Assembly: GCF_004135975.1 (NCBI RefSeq)
Contig: NZ_CP026538.1
Location: 1,798,001 to 1,862,000 of the forward strand
Source: Solidesulfovibrio carbinolicus
GTDB taxonomy: Bacteria > Desulfobacterota > Desulfovibrionia > Desulfovibrionales > Desulfovibrionaceae
Reading direction: 5' to 3'
Length of the DNA stretch: 64,000 bases
Shown in pieces: positions 45,178 through 51,860 of this stretch. The translations under genes were made by a program, and so were the position numbers. Each line of letters opens with the position of its first letter. Position 1 is the stretch's first letter. Below the pieces are notes generated by a model. That model was not told the DNA's origin. It made no database searches and was given only the letters and a program-made list of their open reading frames with translations.

Positions 45178-46812
45178 ATGCGCAACCTGTCCAAGACCAA
45201 CGACGTCCTCGGCACGACCAATCGCGGCAATGTCGCCCCGTCCGGGCTGTGCACCCTGTGCCGCGCCGACTGCGCCGGCAAATGCGAAACATGGCTGTCG
45301 AGCCTCAAGGGCCGGGCCATGCTCTATCCCCGGGATTTCGGGATCGTCACCGCCGGCAGCGGCAACACCGAACACGTGGGCGTGAGCTACGACGCCCTGC
45401 GCATCCAGGGCTACAACTACGGTGCCCACGCCGTGGCCGCCGGGCGCACCACCAATCCCGACGACTGCCTGTTCACCAACGTGAACCTGGAAACGGCCTT
45501 TGGCAAAGGCCTCAAGGCGCGCTTGCCGCTCATGACCGGGGCGCTGGGGTCGACCTTTATCGCGGCCAAGTACTGGGACAGCTTCGCCATCGGCTGCGCC
45601 CTGGCCGGTCTGCCCATCGTCATCGGCGAAAACGTGGTCGGCGTGGACCGGGCGGCCGTCATCGAGAACGGCAAGATCACCGCCGCCCCGGAACTCGACC
45701 GGCGCATCGACGGCTATCTGCGCTACTTCGACGGCTACGGCGCGGTCATCGTGCAGCTCAACGTCGAGGACGCCCGCAACGGCGTGGCCGAGTACGTGGC
45801 CGACAAGTACGGCGACAAGGTGGTGGTGGAGCTCAAATGGGGCCAGGGGGCCAAGAACATCGGCGGCGAGATCGAGGTCAAAAGCCTCGACTACGCCCTG
45901 TTCCTCAAAAAGCGCGGCTACCTCGTGGACCCGGACCCGCAGGACCCGGCCGTGGTCGAAGCCTTCCAAAACGGCGCGGTCAAGGGCTTCGCCCGCCATT
46001 CGCGCCTGGGCTACACCGACCTTGCCGGCAACGACGCCGTGCGCGAGGCCTTTGCCGCCAACGTCGCCTATCTGCGCTCGCTTGGGTTCCGCAACATCTC
46101 GCTCAAGACCGGGGCCTACGGCATGGAAGCCTTGGCCCTCTCCCTGCGCTGCGCCACCGACGCCGGGCTTGATCTGCTCACCATCGACGGCGCCGGCGGC
46201 GGCACGGGCATGAGCCCCTGGAACATGATGGAGACCTGGGGCGTGCCCTCCATCCTGCTCCACGCCAAGGCGGCCGAGTACGCCGCACTTCTCGCCTCGC
46301 GCGGACAGCGCGTGGTCGATCTGTCCTTTGCCGGGGGCCTGGCCCGGGAGGACCACATCTTCAAGGCCCTGGCCCTGGGCGCGCCCTATGTGAAGCTCGT
46401 GTGCATGGGCCGCGCAGTGATGATCCCGGGCTTTTTGGGCTCCAACATCGAAGGGGCCCTTAATCCCGCGCGCCGAGAGGCGGTCAGCGGCAATTGGGAC
46501 AGCCTGCCCAAGACCGTCACGGACATCGGCCGCACGCCCGAGGAACTCTTCGCGGCCTACTCCACGGTGAAGGAAAAAGTCGGCGCGGACGAGATGGCGA
46601 ACATCCCTTACGGGGCGGTGGCCATCTGCACCCTGGCCGACAAGCTCGGCGCGGGCTTGCAGCAGCTCTTGGCCGGCGCGCGCAAGTTCGCGGTCACCTC
46701 CATCGACCGTCGCGACATCGCCTCGGCCAACCGCGAAACCGAGCGGGAGACCGGCGTGCCGTTTATCACGGATGTACAGGACGAGGTGGCGCGGGGGGTG
46801 TTGTTGGGGTAG
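45178..46812 (+). CDS. FMN-binding glutamate-synthase-family protein
   Basis: A 544-residue homologue of the central/FMN domain of glutamate synthase (TIDGAGGGTGMSPWNMMETWGVPS, DLSFAGGLAREDHIFKALALGAPYVKL). An N-terminal cysteine group, Cys25, Cys28, Cys32 and Cys36 (CTLCRADCAGKC), may hold an extra Fe-S cluster. There is no amidotransferase domain, so it would need ammonia or a separate glutaminase subunit. The ATG at 45178 has AGGAGAG upstream. It is monocistronic and ended by a terminator at the border of the AT-rich island. Confidence 0.85.
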   Translation: MRNLSKTNDVLGTTNRGNVAPSGLCTLCRADCAGKCETWLSSLKGRAMLYPRDFGIVTAGSGNTEHVGVSYDALRIQGYNYGAHAVAAGRTTNPDDCLFTNVNLETAFGKGLKARLPLMTGALGSTFIAAKYWDSFAIGCALAGLPIVIGENVVGVDRAAVIENGKITAAPELDRRIDGYLRYFDGYGAVIVQLNVEDARNGVAEYVADKYGDKVVVELKWGQGAKNIGGEIEVKSLDYALFLKKRGYLVDPDPQDPAVVEAFQNGAVKGFARHSRLGYTDLAGNDAVREAFAANVAYLRSLGFRNISLKTGAYGMEALALSLRCATDAGLDLLTIDGAGGGTGMSPWNMMETWGVPSILLHAKAAEYAALLASRGQRVVDLSFAGGLAREDHIFKALALGAPYVKLVCMGRAVMIPGFLGSNIEGALNPARREAVSGNWDSLPKTVTDIGRTPEELFAAYSTVKEKVGADEMANIPYGAVAICTLADKLGAGLQQLLAGARKFAVTSIDRRDIASANRETERETGVPFITDVQDEVARGVLLG

Positions 46813-46856
46813 GGTGGAGAGTTCGCCGCTGGTTGTTGCGGCGAAGTCTTGCTGGG

Positions 46857-46899
46857 AAGTCCTGGTCGGGGGGAGCCTCCGGTCAGGACTTTTCTTTTT
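46857..46899 (+). terminator. Terminator of the glutamate-synthase-like gene
   Basis: AAGTCCTG / CAGGACTT with an internal GC-rich region, followed by TTTCTTTTT. A second 8-bp hairpin (TTCGCCGC / GCGGCGAA, 46822-46845) lies just before it. Confidence 0.8.
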
Positions 46900-46953
46900 G
46901 GCGGGTAGACCACTTCAGACACCAGAAAAGTAATTGCTTGAATAATATAGATT

Positions 46954-46982
46954 TTGACATTTGATGGTGGTTTTCGTATGCT
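46954..46982 (+). promoter_or_regulatory. Near-consensus sigma-70 promoter facing the inverted-repeat cassette
   Basis: TTGACA (46954-46959), exactly 17 bp, TATGCT (46977-46982). It points rightward, 140 bp before the left inverted repeat and outside the repeat-bounded segment. The transcript would begin near 46990 and enter the gene at 47151. Confidence 0.65.
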
Positions 46983-47089
46983 TAACCGGATTGACCGTCG
47001 GCGTGCTGCCCTCTGATGTGTATCAGTTAGCAATTTTTGCGTTTAGCAAGGCTATGCACTGGCCCTGAATTGATTAAAGCCTTAGTCGC

Positions 47090-47106
47090 GGGGAGGTGAT
47101 CTCCCC
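47090..47106 (+). promoter_or_regulatory. Hairpin containing an anti-16S sequence in the leader of the cassette
   Basis: GGGGAG-GTGAT-CTCCCC. The segment GGAGGTGATC is perfectly complementary to the 3' end of 16S rRNA, yet no sizeable reading frame begins at the right distance. It may be a ribosome-standby or regulatory structure. Confidence 0.4.
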
Positions 47107-47124
47107 TGAAAGTGTACATCTAAC

Positions 47125-47144
47125 CAATCGATAATTGAGAATTA
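47125..47144 (+). repeat. Left copy of the 20-bp inverted repeat (putative recombination site)
   Basis: CAATCGATAATTGAGAATTA, identical and inverted relative to 48695-48714. With flanking bases, this copy forms AATCGATAA-TTGAGAA-TTATCTATT, i.e. two near-perfect inverted arms around a 7-bp centre, the layout of a tyrosine-recombinase core site. It ends 6 bp before the ATG of the next gene. Confidence 0.85.
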
Positions 47145-47150
47145 TCTATT

Positions 47151-47933
47151 ATGAAAATTGCAGAAGGAAGAATGGGAAAATGGCTTGGCATTTTGTCGGG
47201 CCCAATTCTTAGTCTTATTGCATTTGTCGTGTCGTATTATTTAGATCCTTTAAATTTTGGAGGTCAAAAAGAACTTGCAGCGATACCTGCGCTGCTGTTT
47301 TCTATTATAGTCTTACTAATAGGGCAAGGGATAAACACTGATCTTGAAATTCGAAAGGCATCAATGTACTCTGGACAGGCCTGTGAAGCTGTAAAAGACT
47401 ATCTGCATGTTATAAAAATTGGATCACCAGAGAAAGCTCTTCAATATATTATTGGAAGAATGCCGTCACTTCGAGAAGTTGACAATACATCATTCAATAT
47501 AGAAGGAGAGCAAGAAAGGGCCTCAGAAAAATACTATGACACTGATACATATAACGATTCATGCAAGCAAATAGCATACTACTCTTCAAAAAAATTAATA
47601 TGGAAAGACATTGGCGATAGTTGGGCAATAGATAGATTTCGAGAGATTGAAACTGCATCTAGACGACTTGCCAAAGGGAATGCGTGTCATTATAAGTACA
47701 AGCTTATCGGGCATAAAGATCCGCAAATGAATTTCATTATTCTCGAGTACGCTGACGATACTCGCGAGGTGTTGTTTAACTGGGATTTTCGAGGGATAGG
47801 GAAAGACCCCATCGTACTCTTGTCGAGAGACCATCAAGTGATAGAGATGTTTGCAATACATTATGCACAGCTATGGAAAAGGGCGAGTTTCGATCACGAC
47901 AGTGTAGCCACTAAATCGACTTCAACAAAGTAA
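47151..47933 (+). CDS. Membrane protein of unknown function in the AT-rich cassette
   Basis: A 260-residue protein with two transmembrane segments (about 11-33 and 42-62) and a cytoplasmic domain of about 195 residues. The C-terminal part (EVLFNWDFRGIGKDPIVLLSRDHQVIEMFAIHYAQLWKRAS) looks like a ligand- or effector-type domain, but I do not recognise the family. AT-rich codons differ strongly from the flanking genome, indicating transfer. It starts directly after the left repeat with only a weak GAGA site. Its 3' end overlaps that of the convergent methyltransferase by 40 bp. Confidence 0.75.
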   Translation: MKIAEGRMGKWLGILSGPILSLIAFVVSYYLDPLNFGGQKELAAIPALLFSIIVLLIGQGINTDLEIRKASMYSGQACEAVKDYLHVIKIGSPEKALQYIIGRMPSLREVDNTSFNIEGEQERASEKYYDTDTYNDSCKQIAYYSSKKLIWKDIGDSWAIDRFREIETASRRLAKGNACHYKYKLIGHKDPQMNFIILEYADDTREVLFNWDFRGIGKDPIVLLSRDHQVIEMFAIHYAQLWKRASFDHDSVATKSTSTK

Positions 47934-48691
47934 GATTGTTCTGGATTTGGTGTCGCTACATATTTTTCTTGCCATTTAATAAGTAAATTCCTTGCGGTTT
48001 CACTTAAGAACTGCGCATTCCAATTGATTGTCTCGTCGAGATAATGCTTAAAACTGTTTGTATATGGAGATCTCTTCTCGAACACATCGAATTCAATGTC
48101 TTTTTGTGTAAAATCGGATGCAGATATTGCTTGAATAGTTCTGTCAATGTCATAGTGTCGAAACATATTGCTGTCTGAAAGAGCTGTGAATAATGACATT
48201 TCTATCTCGAAGCGCTCTTTATTGTCCATTGGGCCGAATCGCATAGTTCCTTCATCATATTGGCGTATCACGACACAACCGTTTTTATTAAGCTTTTTGT
48301 GCAGGCTATTTAAAAAGTTAAGACTGTCATTAACATATGAAAACATATTAAATACGAGGAACATGTCGGCGCAGGGGATGTTGCTACTTGATTCAATATC
48401 AGATTGAATGAATTCGTGACTCCTTTTCCAGTTTTGAGAGATTTCTTTTGCCTTAGAAATTGCAGCGGTATCACCGTCAATCCCAATAAAATGACAGTTT
48501 GCTGAAGCGATTTTATCTAAAATGTTGAGCCATAGACCTGTTCCACAGCCTAAGTCGACGATACATGCTGGTGAGCTTTGAAGAATTTTTTTTGCAAAGT
48601 GCATTCGTTCATTTATTTTTGCATTGTGATGAATTTGAAGCCATTCAGACGAACTTAGCGGGCGGCCCGATTTGTTGATCCATGATGTCAT
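47894..48691 (-). CDS. Class I SAM-dependent methyltransferase in the AT-rich cassette
   Basis: A 265-residue Rossmann-fold methyltransferase. Motif I VDLGCGTG is at 45-52, the acidic residue of motif II is in FIGIDGD, and FNMFSYVNDSLNFL is the post-III helix. Substrate not deducible; no DNA-methyltransferase (N/D)PPY motif is seen. AT-rich codon use as for the cassette partner. Its ATG is 4 bp after the right repeat and 13 bp after the recombinase stop, so readthrough from the recombinase would express it. Confidence 0.85.
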   Translation of the reverse strand: MTSWINKSGRPLSSSEWLQIHHNAKINERMHFAKKILQSSPACIVDLGCGTGLWLNILDKIASANCHFIGIDGDTAAISKAKEISQNWKRSHEFIQSDIESSSNIPCADMFLVFNMFSYVNDSLNFLNSLHKKLNKNGCVVIRQYDEGTMRFGPMDNKERFEIEMSLFTALSDSNMFRHYDIDRTIQAISASDFTQKDIEFDVFEKRSPYTNSFKHYLDETINWNAQFLSETARNLLIKWQEKYVATPNPEQSYFVEVDLVATLS

Positions 48692-48694
48692 TGG

Positions 48695-48714
48695 TAATTC
48701 TCAATTATCGATTG
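48695..48714 (-). repeat. Right copy of the 20-bp inverted repeat (putative recombination site)
   Basis: Reading leftward it is CAATCGATAATTGAGAATTA, identical to 47125-47144. It contains the recombinase codons for Asn-Arg and the TAA stop (48707-48705), so one recombination site coincides with the 3' end of the recombinase gene. Confidence 0.85.
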
Positions 48715-49649
48715 TTCTCCTCGGCATTGAGTTGGAGGCGGGGGTGGCGTTCCGTTAAGGCTTCCCTTTGGGCCGAGAGGCTGACATGGGTGTATATCTC
48801 CGTGACGGCCAAGGAGCTGTGTCCCAAAAGTTTTTGAATATTTCGGATGTCCACTCCATTTTCAAGCAGCAATGTGGCTATGGTGTGTCTGAACATATGT
48901 GGTGTCGCATGTTCTGGTATGCAAGATAGAGTGTTGTATTTTTTTATGATATGGCGTACGGATTGGTCGGAGAGCGGGCGTTTGTCTCTATTTAGAAAAA
49001 ATTGGGTGCTTGGATCAAGGTATTCAGTGTATTGGGCCATGTAGGTAGTCAGCGCATTGACTGTTGAGTCGTTGCATAATGGTATTACTCGTTCGCGTTT
49101 TCCTTTTCCAAGTACAAGTATTTGTTGGTTTCTTAAGTCGACGTCGGAAACTTTCAGCTTGCATAGTTCAGAAACCCTGATGCCTGTGGAGAATAGTATT
49201 TCCAGTACGGCAATATCTCTGGTCTTCTCTTTGTAGTTGGCTGTGTCTTGTTTAGCTCTTTCGAGCGAATTGTATGCTGCTTTCAGTAGCTTGTTGACGG
49301 ATGGTAATGATAGAGTTCTCGGTAAATTTACCGCTCTGTCAAGTCTGAGTCTGAGCTTCCTGAATGGCGAGTTTTCGATGTGCTCCTCTTGTTCAAGGAA
49401 AGAAAAAAACGATTTAAGTGTTGCGATCTTTCGTTTTATGCTTCGTGGTTTGTAATTGTCGTCCAGCCACGATAAATAATTGCGTATAACATTCTTGTCT
49501 ATTTCTGTTACGGAGTTCAGCGATGCCACGTACCGTTTCTCTTGGAATTGACTGAGGTCCAACTTGTAAGCCGTCAAAGTAAATGGCGCCAATCCCCTTT
49601 CGAGTCTGCAGTGTAACAGAAAATTATCGATAGCTTTTTGCACGGTCAT
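48705..49649 (-). CDS. Tyrosine recombinase (XerC/D-like integrase)
   Basis: A 314-residue recombinase. SAM-like N-terminal core-binding domain about 1-90, catalytic domain about 108-295 with all catalytic residues: Arg158 (GIRVSEL), Lys182/184 (GKGKRERVIP), His251 and Arg254 (HMFRHTIATLLLENG), His277 (LLGHSS) and nucleophile Tyr286 (EIYTHVS). It is not the housekeeping XerC by codon use, which is AT-rich. The ATG at 49649 has AAGGAAG upstream. It presumably acts on the two inverted repeats flanking the neighbouring gene pair. Confidence 0.93.
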   Translation of the reverse strand: MTVQKAIDNFLLHCRLERGLAPFTLTAYKLDLSQFQEKRYVASLNSVTEIDKNVIRNYLSWLDDNYKPRSIKRKIATLKSFFSFLEQEEHIENSPFRKLRLRLDRAVNLPRTLSLPSVNKLLKAAYNSLERAKQDTANYKEKTRDIAVLEILFSTGIRVSELCKLKVSDVDLRNQQILVLGKGKRERVIPLCNDSTVNALTTYMAQYTEYLDPSTQFFLNRDKRPLSDQSVRHIIKKYNTLSCIPEHATPHMFRHTIATLLLENGVDIRNIQKLLGHSSLAVTEIYTHVSLSAQREALTERHPRLQLNAEENNR

Positions 49650-49801
49650 TGCGACTTCCTTCATGTCGATTCGGACATCTCGCCGATTCTGACACAAATA
49701 GTATGGAAAGTCACAGGGATAGGGGTTTATTCGTGTATTGCATTTGTTTTGTTCGGTAGTCCGGTTCGCCGTTCATTTGTCAGTATTATTATCAGAATTA
49801 A

Positions 49802-49839
49802 TAAAAAGCGGCCCAGGGGTATTCTCACCCCCGGGCCGC
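49802..49839 (-). terminator. Intrinsic terminator of acs
   Basis: On the minus strand, GGCGGCCCGGGGGT / ACCCCTGGGCCGC (one G-T pair) followed by TTTTTAT. It marks the right border of the AT-rich island. Confidence 0.85.
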
Positions 49840-49874
49840 CTTGATTTATTCTTCTATTATTGGTCAGGCGTCGC

Positions 49875-51860
49875 CTATTTTCCAAACAACCGCTTCTTGC
49901 CGTCGATGAGCTCGTTCACCACGCTCGGATCGGCCAGGGTCGAGGTGTCGCCCAAGCTTTCCACTTCGTCCGAGGCGATTTTGCGCAGGATGCGCCGCAT
50001 GATCTTGCCGCTGCGTGTCTTGGGCAGGCCTGGGGCGAACTGGATCACCTCCGGCGCGGCGATGGGGCCGATCTCCTTGCGCACATGGAGCTTGAGGCCC
50101 TTGAGCAGCTCCTCGCTCTCGTCGTAGCCGGCTTTCAGCGTCACGTAGGCGTAGATGCACTGGCCCTTGATGTCGTGGGGCATGCCGACCACGGCCGCTT
50201 CGGCCACGGTCGGGTGCGACACCAGGGCCGATTCGATCTCGGCCGTGCCCATGCGGTGGCCGGAGACGTTAATGACGTCGTCGACCCGGCCCATGATCCA
50301 GAAATAGCCGTCCTCGTCGCGCCTGGCCCCGTCGCCGGACTCGTAGCAGCCCTTGAACGCCGCGAAATACTGCTGCTTGAAGCGGTCCTTGGCCCCCCAG
50401 ATGCCGCGCAGCATCCCGGGCCAGGGCTTGCGGATGACCAGGAATCCGCCCTGGTTGGGGCCGACTTCCTTGTTTTCCATGTCCACGATGGCCGGATCGA
50501 TGCCGGGCAGCGGCAGCGAAGCCGAACCGGGCTTGAGCGGCGTGGCGTAGGGCAGCGGCGAAATCATGAGCCCGCCGGTCTCGGTCTGCCACCAGGTGTC
50601 CACGATGGGCAGCTTCGAGCCGCCAATGTGGTCATGGTACCACATCCAGGCTTCGGGGTTGATGGGTTCGCCAACCGATCCGAGGATGCGCAGCGACGAC
50701 AGGTCGTGCTTCTGGGTCCAGGCCGGGCCGGACTTCATGAGCGAGCGGATGACCGTGGGCGCGGTGTAGAAGACGTTGACCTTGAACTTGGAGCAGATCT
50801 GCCAGAAGCGGTCCGGGGCCGGGTAGGTGGGCACGCTCTCGAACATGAGCGAGGTCGCGCCCAGGGCCAGCGGGCCGTAGACGATGTAGGAATGGCCGGT
50901 GATCCAGCCGATGTCGGCGGTGCACCAGTGGATGTCGTCGTCTTTGAGGTCGAAAACGATCTGCGAGGTGTGGGCGGCGTAGGTCAGGTAGCCGCCGGTG
51001 GTGTGGTAGACGCCCTTGGGCTTGCCGGTGGAGCCGGAGGTGTAGAGGATAAACAGCACATCCTCGGCGTCCATGGACTCGGCCGGGCAATCGCCCTCGA
51101 CGTCGTGGTCGGCCATGACGTCGTGCCACCAGACGTCGCGGCCGGGCTGCATCTCCACGTCGTTGCCGGCGTGGCGCAGCACGATGCATTTATCGATGGT
51201 CGGGCATTCCTTGAGGGCTTCGTCGGCGTTGGGCTTGAGCGGGATGGTCTTGCCCGAGCGGATGACGGCGTCGCTGACCACGATGACCTTGGATTCGCAG
51301 TCGTTGACGCGGTCGCGCAGGCTATGGGCCGAAAAGCCGGCGAAAACGATGCTGTGGGGCGCGCCGATGCGGGCGCAGGCCAGCATGGCGATGGCCAGTT
51401 CCGGCACCATGGGCAGGTACAGGCTCACCCGGTCGCCCTTTTTGACGCCCATCTTCTTGAGCACGTTGGCAAACCGGCAGACTTCGTCGTGGAGCATCTG
51501 ATAGGTGTAGGTGCGCACGTCCTCGTCTTTCTCGCCCTGCCAGATGATGGCGGCCTTGTTGCGGCGGCCGTTGGTCAGATGGCGGTCCAGGCAGTTGTAG
51601 GCGGCGTTGAGCTTGCCGCCGGCGAACCATTTGATTTCGGGGGCGTTGAAATCGTATTCGAGGACCTTGTCCCAGGGGGATTCCCAGGTCAGCAGGTCGG
51701 TGGCGCGCTCGGCCCAGTAGCCCTCGGGGTCTTCGATGGAGCGTTTGTAGATGGCGCGGTATTCGTCGAGGCTTTTAATGTAGGCGGTGTCGCGTCCGGC
51801 GGCGGGCGGTTCGAAGGTGCGTCCTTCCTGCTGGAGGCTTTGGATATTGTCGGCGGTCAT
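49875..51860 (-). CDS. acs: Acetyl-CoA synthetase (AMP-forming)
   Basis: A 661-residue enzyme of normal length. Core motifs: YTSGSTGKPKGVYHTTGGY (P-loop of ANL enzymes), WWQTETGG, YESGDGARRDEDGYFWIMGRVDDVINVSGHR, and the acetylatable Lys in LPKTRSGKIMRR. It converts acetate, ATP and CoA to acetyl-CoA, AMP and PPi. The ATG at 51860 has GGGAGGA upstream. Monocistronic. Confidence 0.97.
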   Translation of the reverse strand: MTADNIQSLQQEGRTFEPPAAGRDTAYIKSLDEYRAIYKRSIEDPEGYWAERATDLLTWESPWDKVLEYDFNAPEIKWFAGGKLNAAYNCLDRHLTNGRRNKAAIIWQGEKDEDVRTYTYQMLHDEVCRFANVLKKMGVKKGDRVSLYLPMVPELAIAMLACARIGAPHSIVFAGFSAHSLRDRVNDCESKVIVVSDAVIRSGKTIPLKPNADEALKECPTIDKCIVLRHAGNDVEMQPGRDVWWHDVMADHDVEGDCPAESMDAEDVLFILYTSGSTGKPKGVYHTTGGYLTYAAHTSQIVFDLKDDDIHWCTADIGWITGHSYIVYGPLALGATSLMFESVPTYPAPDRFWQICSKFKVNVFYTAPTVIRSLMKSGPAWTQKHDLSSLRILGSVGEPINPEAWMWYHDHIGGSKLPIVDTWWQTETGGLMISPLPYATPLKPGSASLPLPGIDPAIVDMENKEVGPNQGGFLVIRKPWPGMLRGIWGAKDRFKQQYFAAFKGCYESGDGARRDEDGYFWIMGRVDDVINVSGHRMGTAEIESALVSHPTVAEAAVVGMPHDIKGQCIYAYVTLKAGYDESEELLKGLKLHVRKEIGPIAAPEVIQFAPGLPKTRSGKIMRRILRKIASDEVESLGDTSTLADPSVVNELIDGKKRLFGK

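Follow-up and report, generated by a model that had tools for sequence, protein, structure and literature searches.

A tyrosine recombinase gene and two convergent genes that lie between perfect inverted repeats form a compact module in the window (the whole stretch of 64,000 nucleotides from Solidesulfovibrio carbinolicus analysed here), and we interpret this module as a site-specific DNA inversion switch with a probability of roughly 0.88. We infer that the window copy flips, that the recombinase is responsible, that an outer promoter dominates expression and that the orientation has a phenotype. A relative of the module is flipped between two strains, and the window module is therefore very probably a genetic toggle. 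The preliminary description of this DNA had proposed a two-gene inversion switch, and comparative sequence analysis supports the proposal through the layout of the relatives, their common core, a centre that is specific to each locus, and one strain-to-strain inversion.

Organization of the locus

The repeat CAATCGATAATTGAGAATTA occurs twice in opposite orientation (Table 1), with 0 mismatches and exactly where the preliminary description had placed it. A pair of this length with up to 3 mismatches is expected 0.00 times by chance in the window, and the sequence is found at exactly two places in the 4.69-Mb genome when up to 2 mismatches are allowed. A chance repeat was rejected on this uniqueness in window and genome, together with the same-centre statistics across the family given below. 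The left copy reads GATAA-TTGAGAA-TTATC, two arms around TTGAGAA, and the other structural details of the preliminary description also hold: the inward-facing genes that begin at 47151 and 48691 are both open, with starts just inside the sites, and the TAA of the recombinase frame falls inside the right copy. The two cargo genes overlap tail to tail by 40 nt, and the GC content of the segment is 38%.

Table 1. Coordinates of the module and its flanking elements in the window
Feature	Position	Strand	Details
Terminator-like stem-loop, 3' of upstream glutamate-synthase-like gene	46854..46894	+	19 pairs, T-rich tail
Putative fixed outer promoter, pointing into the segment	46954..46982	+	TTGACA-17-TATGCT; p=0.02
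Leader hairpin	47090..47106	+	GGGGAG-loop-CTCCCC, read by eye
Proposed outer recombination site, left copy	47125..47144	+	core ATAA-TTGAGAA-TTAT
Cargo gene 1, 260-aa membrane-like protein	47151..47933	+	two N-terminal hydrophobic stretches, by eye
Cargo gene 2, 265-aa SAM-dependent methyltransferase	47894..48691	-	PF13847, 2.8e-14
Proposed recombinase-side recombination site, right copy	48695..48714	-	contains recombinase stop codon
Xer-like tyrosine recombinase	48705..49697	-	PF00589, 6.1e-43; likely start ~49649
Terminator-like stem-loop between acetyl-CoA-synthetase-like gene and recombinase	49805..49842	-

From their translations we take the neighbours of the module to be a glutamate-synthase-like gene and an acetyl-CoA synthetase gene. 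The stem-loop behind the former would insulate the module from this upstream gene. The stem of the leader hairpin is retained in UBA7700, a relative with 97% recombinase identity, with one pair changed on both sides (GAGGAG/CTCCTC), and the GGAGGTGATC stretch within it matches the usual anti-Shine-Dalgarno. No RNA family was found in the region at E ≤ 0.1.

The 260-aa protein has no match in Pfam, PADLOC or the PDB and at best 0.09 in NCBIfam, and its predicted fold (mean pLDDT 43.7) is too poor for use. The methyltransferase weakly resembles that of the relative in genome G314 (73 aa, 1e-9), and it matches mad2 in PADLOC at 1.2e-9, over the methyltransferase domain only.

The recombinase and its sites

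The recombinase gene is intact, and alignment of its product with relatives favours Met17 as the start. Residues R174, K198, H267, R270, H293 and Y302, which we take to be those usually called catalytic, are invariant in six relatives. The protein misses the cut-offs of both the XerC and XerD equivalog models (248.7 vs 335.15 and 248.1 vs 329.6 bits), as well as those of the integron integrase subfamily (95 vs 265 bits) and of the FimB/FimE type of tyrosine DNA invertases (75.6 vs 221 and 55.1 vs 222 bits). Pfam gives Phage_integrase and SAM-like domains only, and no serine recombinase domain.

By sequence comparison, the window module is a member of a family of relatives with the same layout and core. 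When 348 genomes of the class were searched at the protein level, with at most a few candidates scored per genome, 28 recombinases from 21 genomes exceeded 200 bits; the next match has 173.6 bits. In a tree of 55 rows, to which long-branch warnings apply and from which two broken recombinases were omitted, the 17 ordinary Xer proteins cluster together (100/98). On the opposite side are 32 of the 34 rows marked as family, joined by four viral or faecal relatives (94/89), and the remaining two, G467 and G494, are placed on the Xer side (94/89). The recombinase G000-2 forms a long branch and was grouped with Xer (86/62) in an earlier, partly faulty tree.

A dif-like core, ATAA-N7-TTA, is present at the recombinase end in 27 of 29 systems (the 28 of the class and one more, G417, that belongs to a different class in the phylum). 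The two exceptions are G013, where the contig stops just before the expected spot, and G245, which has an N run there. Four of the 27 core-bearing contigs stop at the site, and each of the other 23 has a second core, inverted and with an identical 7-bp centre, 1.6-5.8 kb from the recombinase-side core (22 found by the strict pattern, G417 by a looser one). An inverted core is expected by chance 0.002 times per system. The nearest strict inverted core shares the centre in 22 of 22 cases, against a permutation mean of 3.9 and a maximum of 12 in 20,000 permutations. Ten centres occur (TTGAGAA, TTGGAAA, CTAGGAA, CTAAGAA, CTACTAA, CTAGAAA, CTGGAAA, CTAAAAA, CTGAGAA and CTAAAGA), each the same within a site pair and varying between loci. 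The crossover region of tyrosine recombinases requires identity within a pair and may drift between loci. Five strict cores are in direct orientation: two arise when a paired site is read as a palindrome, and the other three (in G020-2, G314 and G291) have another centre.

In a search of 395 genomes of the phylum the profile score fails to separate the family. Among the matches listed there, G417, G467 and G494 were inspected, and L127 and L128 for the core only. In G467 the recombinase end carries a core, with no partner core on 16 kb; in G494 the contig stops 17 nt beyond the core.

The combination of an ordinary Xer gene with chance repeats was also considered and rejected: among the best ten exact inverted repeats per locus, no recombinase-end pair was found at four ordinary Xer loci (L044-L047). 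At one of these loci (L045 11117-12717, G092), ~1 kb upstream of the ordinary Xer gene, two convergent genes are enclosed by a perfect inverted repeat of 33 bp that lacks the family core. The genome of the window itself contains a second, partly decayed system (L043 4900-8700; G000:C1 ~2000899-2004699) with a 40% identical recombinase, 62-bp inverted repeats and the core ATAACTAGGAATTAT. On one of its sides is a protein of 446 aa that weakly matches TIR, and on the other a decayed copy of the start of this protein plus a glycosyltransferase-like fragment.

Relatives on plasmids and viral contigs

A tblastn search against plasmids gave relatives of the recombinase in Aliarcobacter (43% identity) and Streptococcus (36-37%), and 8 of the 15 plasmid records were examined (three Aliarcobacter, five Streptococcus), along with 2 of 7 phage records. 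In all eight plasmids a convergent pair adjoins the recombinase and is enclosed by perfect inverted repeats that contain the core ATAA-N7-TTAT and measure 17-18 bp in Aliarcobacter and 26-39 bp in Streptococcus. The near site in Streptococcus precedes the recombinase start instead of following the recombinase end. On the gut contig MT835475 (L162 5561-7726), a SIR2/STALD gene faces a TIR gene (both by Pfam) between 19-bp repeats, next to a recombinase of the family.

Of 12 viral loci, L071-L075 were scanned for the core and L071-L073 examined further. L071 has a site pair at 7320-7337/10672-10689, but its ORFs are not arranged as two convergent genes that begin cleanly at the sites. L072, L073 and L163 encode related recombinases, with no site pair on the stretch analysed, and the streptococcal site has 0 matches in the viral contigs.

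Inversion between strains

The plasmids of Aliarcobacter cryaerophilus ATCC 43158 (L160) and M830MA (L165) share a 3,458-nt cassette that is 99.9% identical and reversed. The inversion breaks at the 17-bp sites, and the flanks are co-directional (99.9% over 988 nt for the recombinase stretch and 99.9% over 5.5 kb for the far flank). The gene that follows the recombinase, which is 43% identical to that of the window, is an NTPase gene in ATCC 43158 and an ATP-grasp gene in M830MA. The NTPase gene is split into two frames in M830MA (L165 1937-4407) and open in ATCC 43158. In the main text of the M830MA plasmid paper (PMC6690266), the word start 'invert' occurs 0 times.

More distant relatives also differ in orientation. 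In systems with the ATP-grasp/NTPase pair, the NTPase gene adjoins the recombinase in G291 and G295, and the ATP-grasp gene does so in G284-2 and G292; the homology between G284-2 and G291 amounts to 5e-45 for the small protein and 1e-38 for the large one. A pair of SHMT and NTPase occupies opposite sides in Streptococcus salivarius ICDC2 and G284-1 (1e-90, 2e-35), as does a methyltransferase/GNAT-like pair in S. salivarius SALI-10, which is identical to LAB813 over 14.9 kb, and Aliarcobacter faecis (5e-55, 2e-33). Homologous pairs thus lie on opposite sides across phyla, from which it follows that the pairs persist and the orientation does not. The five streptococcal plasmids contain cassette swaps and no inversion of one and the same cassette.

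Breaks in assemblies point in the same direction. Contigs stop at the site in 6 of 27 systems (G007, G013, G020-1, G039, G281 and G325), compared with 0.16 expected within 40 bp, a figure derived from rounded contig counts, and the N run in G245 is a seventh case of a break at a site. In G007 and G281 the two flanking contigs stop at one and the same base of the repeat, a pattern that would arise if either flank could lead into two different inner sequences. Such ends could also stem from mixed strains or from the exchange of cassettes, and 7 of the 13 systems in genomes of at least 20 contigs are unbroken at the site, or 6 with the N run included. The contig end in G020-1 may be due to a duplicated site: a third copy in direct orientation, followed by the same NTPase start, lies 17 kb away (G020:C9:20791-20805). 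In G325, a lone core with the centre CTACTAA is present at a contig start (C5:12-26); the recombinase-side core of this genome has the centre CTAGGAA, and the lone core is perhaps the flank of a second system.

The cassette of the window was not seen in the opposite orientation. In UBA7700 the assembly breaks at both sites, and neither cargo gene of the window was found there. The preliminary description had proposed a search for other genomes with the recombinase, the repeat and alternative gene pairs, and had counted a single orientation throughout or unconserved repeats against a switch. The genomes found by this search have repeats that are conserved along with the recombinase, and in the assemblies both orientations occur within the family.

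The repeats could alternatively be duplicated leaders or operators that do not recombine, since they lie directly 5' of both start codons and may, as judged by eye, hold a ribosome-binding site. For the family this is contradicted by the strain-to-strain inversion at the sites; centres that are the same within pairs and different between loci, and contigs that end at a site, also speak against it, and we consider it extremely improbable.

Replacement of cassettes

In several related loci the homology extends through the recombinase, halts at the core and resumes at the outer core. G132 and G133 are 86% and 89% identical for several kb on either side of the replaced cassette. G286-2, G292 and G295 share 92-94% identity over the recombinase and the ~100 nt before it and 86-87% over 0.9-3.1 kb outside, and the two sides of the cassette in G289 and G286-1 are 76% and 85% identical. 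For G020-1 and G291 the comparison is limited to the recombinase side (96%), as the outer site is where the G020 contig begins. The replaced cargo is unrelated by blastp, except for a distant ATP-grasp match between G292 and G295 (1e-5). Cassettes are also replaced from site to site between A. cryaerophilus and A. faecis and among the S. salivarius plasmids. G323-1 and G294 represent the reverse case, with related cargo and unlike flanks.

These replacements between cores, in the three groups of the class as well as in the Aliarcobacter and streptococcal plasmids, would be accounted for if the repeats were mainly the ends of exchangeable cassettes at a landing site, and inversion a side reaction. 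However, in all 23 systems the two cores that match in centre are inverted relative to each other, one cassette is purely inverted, and convergent genes that start at both sites fit a toggle; moreover, ordinary homologous recombination in the flanks could equally swap cassettes. We therefore regard cassette exchange as the main function of the sites as improbable and prefer the inversion switch.

Cargo of the family

Convergent ORFs start within ~55 nt of the outer edge of the core in 20 of 23 systems, sometimes with two genes on one side, and one side is decayed in the other three (G000-2, G286-1 and G323-2). According to Pfam, the enzyme side encodes an ATP-grasp ligase, methyltransferase, glycosyltransferase, carbamoyltransferase, SHMT, ketoacyl synthase III, radical SAM protein, or an aminotransferase plus a sulfotransferase; in G286-2 and G293-2 a protein without an assigned family takes this position. 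On the opposite side is a large protein with AAA/STAND-type, NB-ARC, TPR, Mrr or SIR2 domains (Pfam; many of the NTPase matches fall below the gathering scores), or else a pentapeptide-repeat protein or one that appears membrane-like by eye. Seven of the 48 scanned cargo ORFs have no Pfam match. As judged from these domains, the cargo recurrently pairs an enzyme with a STAND-like NTPase, SIR2, pentapeptide-repeat or membrane-like protein. PADLOC gave weak matches (TIR 1.3e-5, SIR2 types, Avs2 0.003) or none for nine large proteins of the relatives.

A second system in G291 (L159 1419-8250) has a broken recombinase and an apparently open cassette, in which an aminotransferase plus a sulfotransferase face a SIR2-nSTAND protein.

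Putative outer promoter and proposed mechanism

The preliminary description had placed a fixed promoter at 46954. This stretch is indeed the best promoter-like match in 46700-50000 (10/12), and TTGACATTT of it is retained in UBA7700; the number of promoter-like matches in the same region is ordinary (7, against a shuffle mean of 6.7). Among the relatives, TTGACGTT/TTGACATTG, read towards the site, is present in 9 of 22 outer flanks, compared with 0/23 upstream of the recombinase, 0/23 before the recombinase-side site and 0/22 on the opposite strand; this motif was chosen after viewing the flanks, and some of the nine are mutually related. The full TTGAC[AG] plus -10 pattern occurs in 3 of 22 outer flanks, the window included, where 0.1 are expected. 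Because it is found in these three only, the promoter logic is weaker than the case for inversion. Whichever gene is next to the outer site is probably driven by a fixed promoter beyond that site; in this assembly it is the gene for the membrane-like protein.

We propose that the Xer-like recombinase would exchange strands at the adjacent inverted dif-like sites, ATAA-TTGAGAA-TTAT, with the 7-bp centre as the crossover region, and that this strand exchange would flip the 1.6-kb segment. Since the inward genes start just inside the sites, a flip would change the gene that is located behind the 46954 promoter, and the other gene would come last in the transcription unit of the recombinase. The cell would then toggle between producing mainly the membrane-like protein, as in the orientation of this assembly, and mainly the methyltransferase.

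Inversion might also act without such an either/or outcome, if both genes were expressed in both orientations and the dose alone changed, a reading that concerns the expression step and overlaps with the inversion switch. In the window the recombinase stop lies within the site and no terminator-like site is listed before the near gene, and in the streptococcal plasmids a weak promoter-like stretch, seen by eye, precedes the near site. By contrast, the absence of TTGACGTT/TTGACATTG from the recombinase-side flanks and its presence in the outer ones, as well as the terminator-like stem between the recombinase and its upstream gene, argue against this reading, and we consider a change in dose alone rather unlikely.

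Relation to known systems

In many of the inversion switches known so far, a promoter is flipped or a single antigen is reshuffled. An invertase gene is located beside the invertible segment in the Mu G segment with Gin, the P1 C segment with Cin and Salmonella Hin, and in Mu two inward alternative gene sets lie behind an outside promoter. These systems differ from the window module in that their enzymes are serine recombinases and the cargo consists of related tail-fibre variants or, for Hin, a promoter. The XerC/XerD-dif system, a two-protein system for dimer resolution, resembles the window module in protein family and in the ATAA and TTAT inner arms of the site, whereas the window recombinase falls below both equivalog cut-offs and the 7-bp centre of its site varies by locus.

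In Ureaplasma, inversion at short inverted repeats alternates two oppositely oriented genes (mba/UU376 and UU172/UU171), tyrosine recombinases are the candidate enzymes, and a quoted repeat has GATAA-6 bp-TTATC (PMC3047005). Those genes encode surface proteins, and one repeat lies within the coding sequence, with the effect that inversion joins one common start to either of the two genes; unlike in the family described here, the passages considered mention no exchange of unrelated gene pairs (PMC3047005). PsrA of the pneumococcal hsdS locus is a tyrosine recombinase encoded in the locus that is inverted, at short inverted repeats, but it shuffles the specificity genes of one restriction-modification system (PMC7096588). 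The features that go beyond Mu G and Ureaplasma are the Xer-like recombinase within the module, the non-homologous cargo, the exchangeable pairs and the distribution over three phyla. Searches of open-licence PMC papers, excluding preprints, gave none that describes the module by title and abstract start, and in the available part of PMC7159879 'inversion', 'invert' and 'phase variation' have 0 occurrences.

Implications

Unrelated whole genes would alternate in this module, and the gene pair itself appears to be exchangeable at a fixed place. The same kinds of pairs recur in Thermodesulfobacteriota, Campylobacterota and Bacillota, and the sites together with the recombinase provide a simple search rule for more pairs. 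If the STAND, SIR2 and TIR cargo is defensive, bacteria would hedge between two alternative proteins at the level of the population, and the pairing would indicate which enzyme belongs with which sensor. More tentatively, and with considerable doubt, we speculate that the family represents a general-purpose two-state module, an exchangeable phase-variable immunity or conflict system under the control of inversion, whose pairs move between phyla as units. The Xer-like recombinase would be dedicated to inverting pairs that are inherited together, a modifying enzyme with an NLR/STAND-like, SIR2 or membrane-like protein. A clone would then always hold both cell types, for example cells that make a modification or signal alongside others equipped with a sensor or effector, and the pairs would be inserted as units into conserved landing sites.
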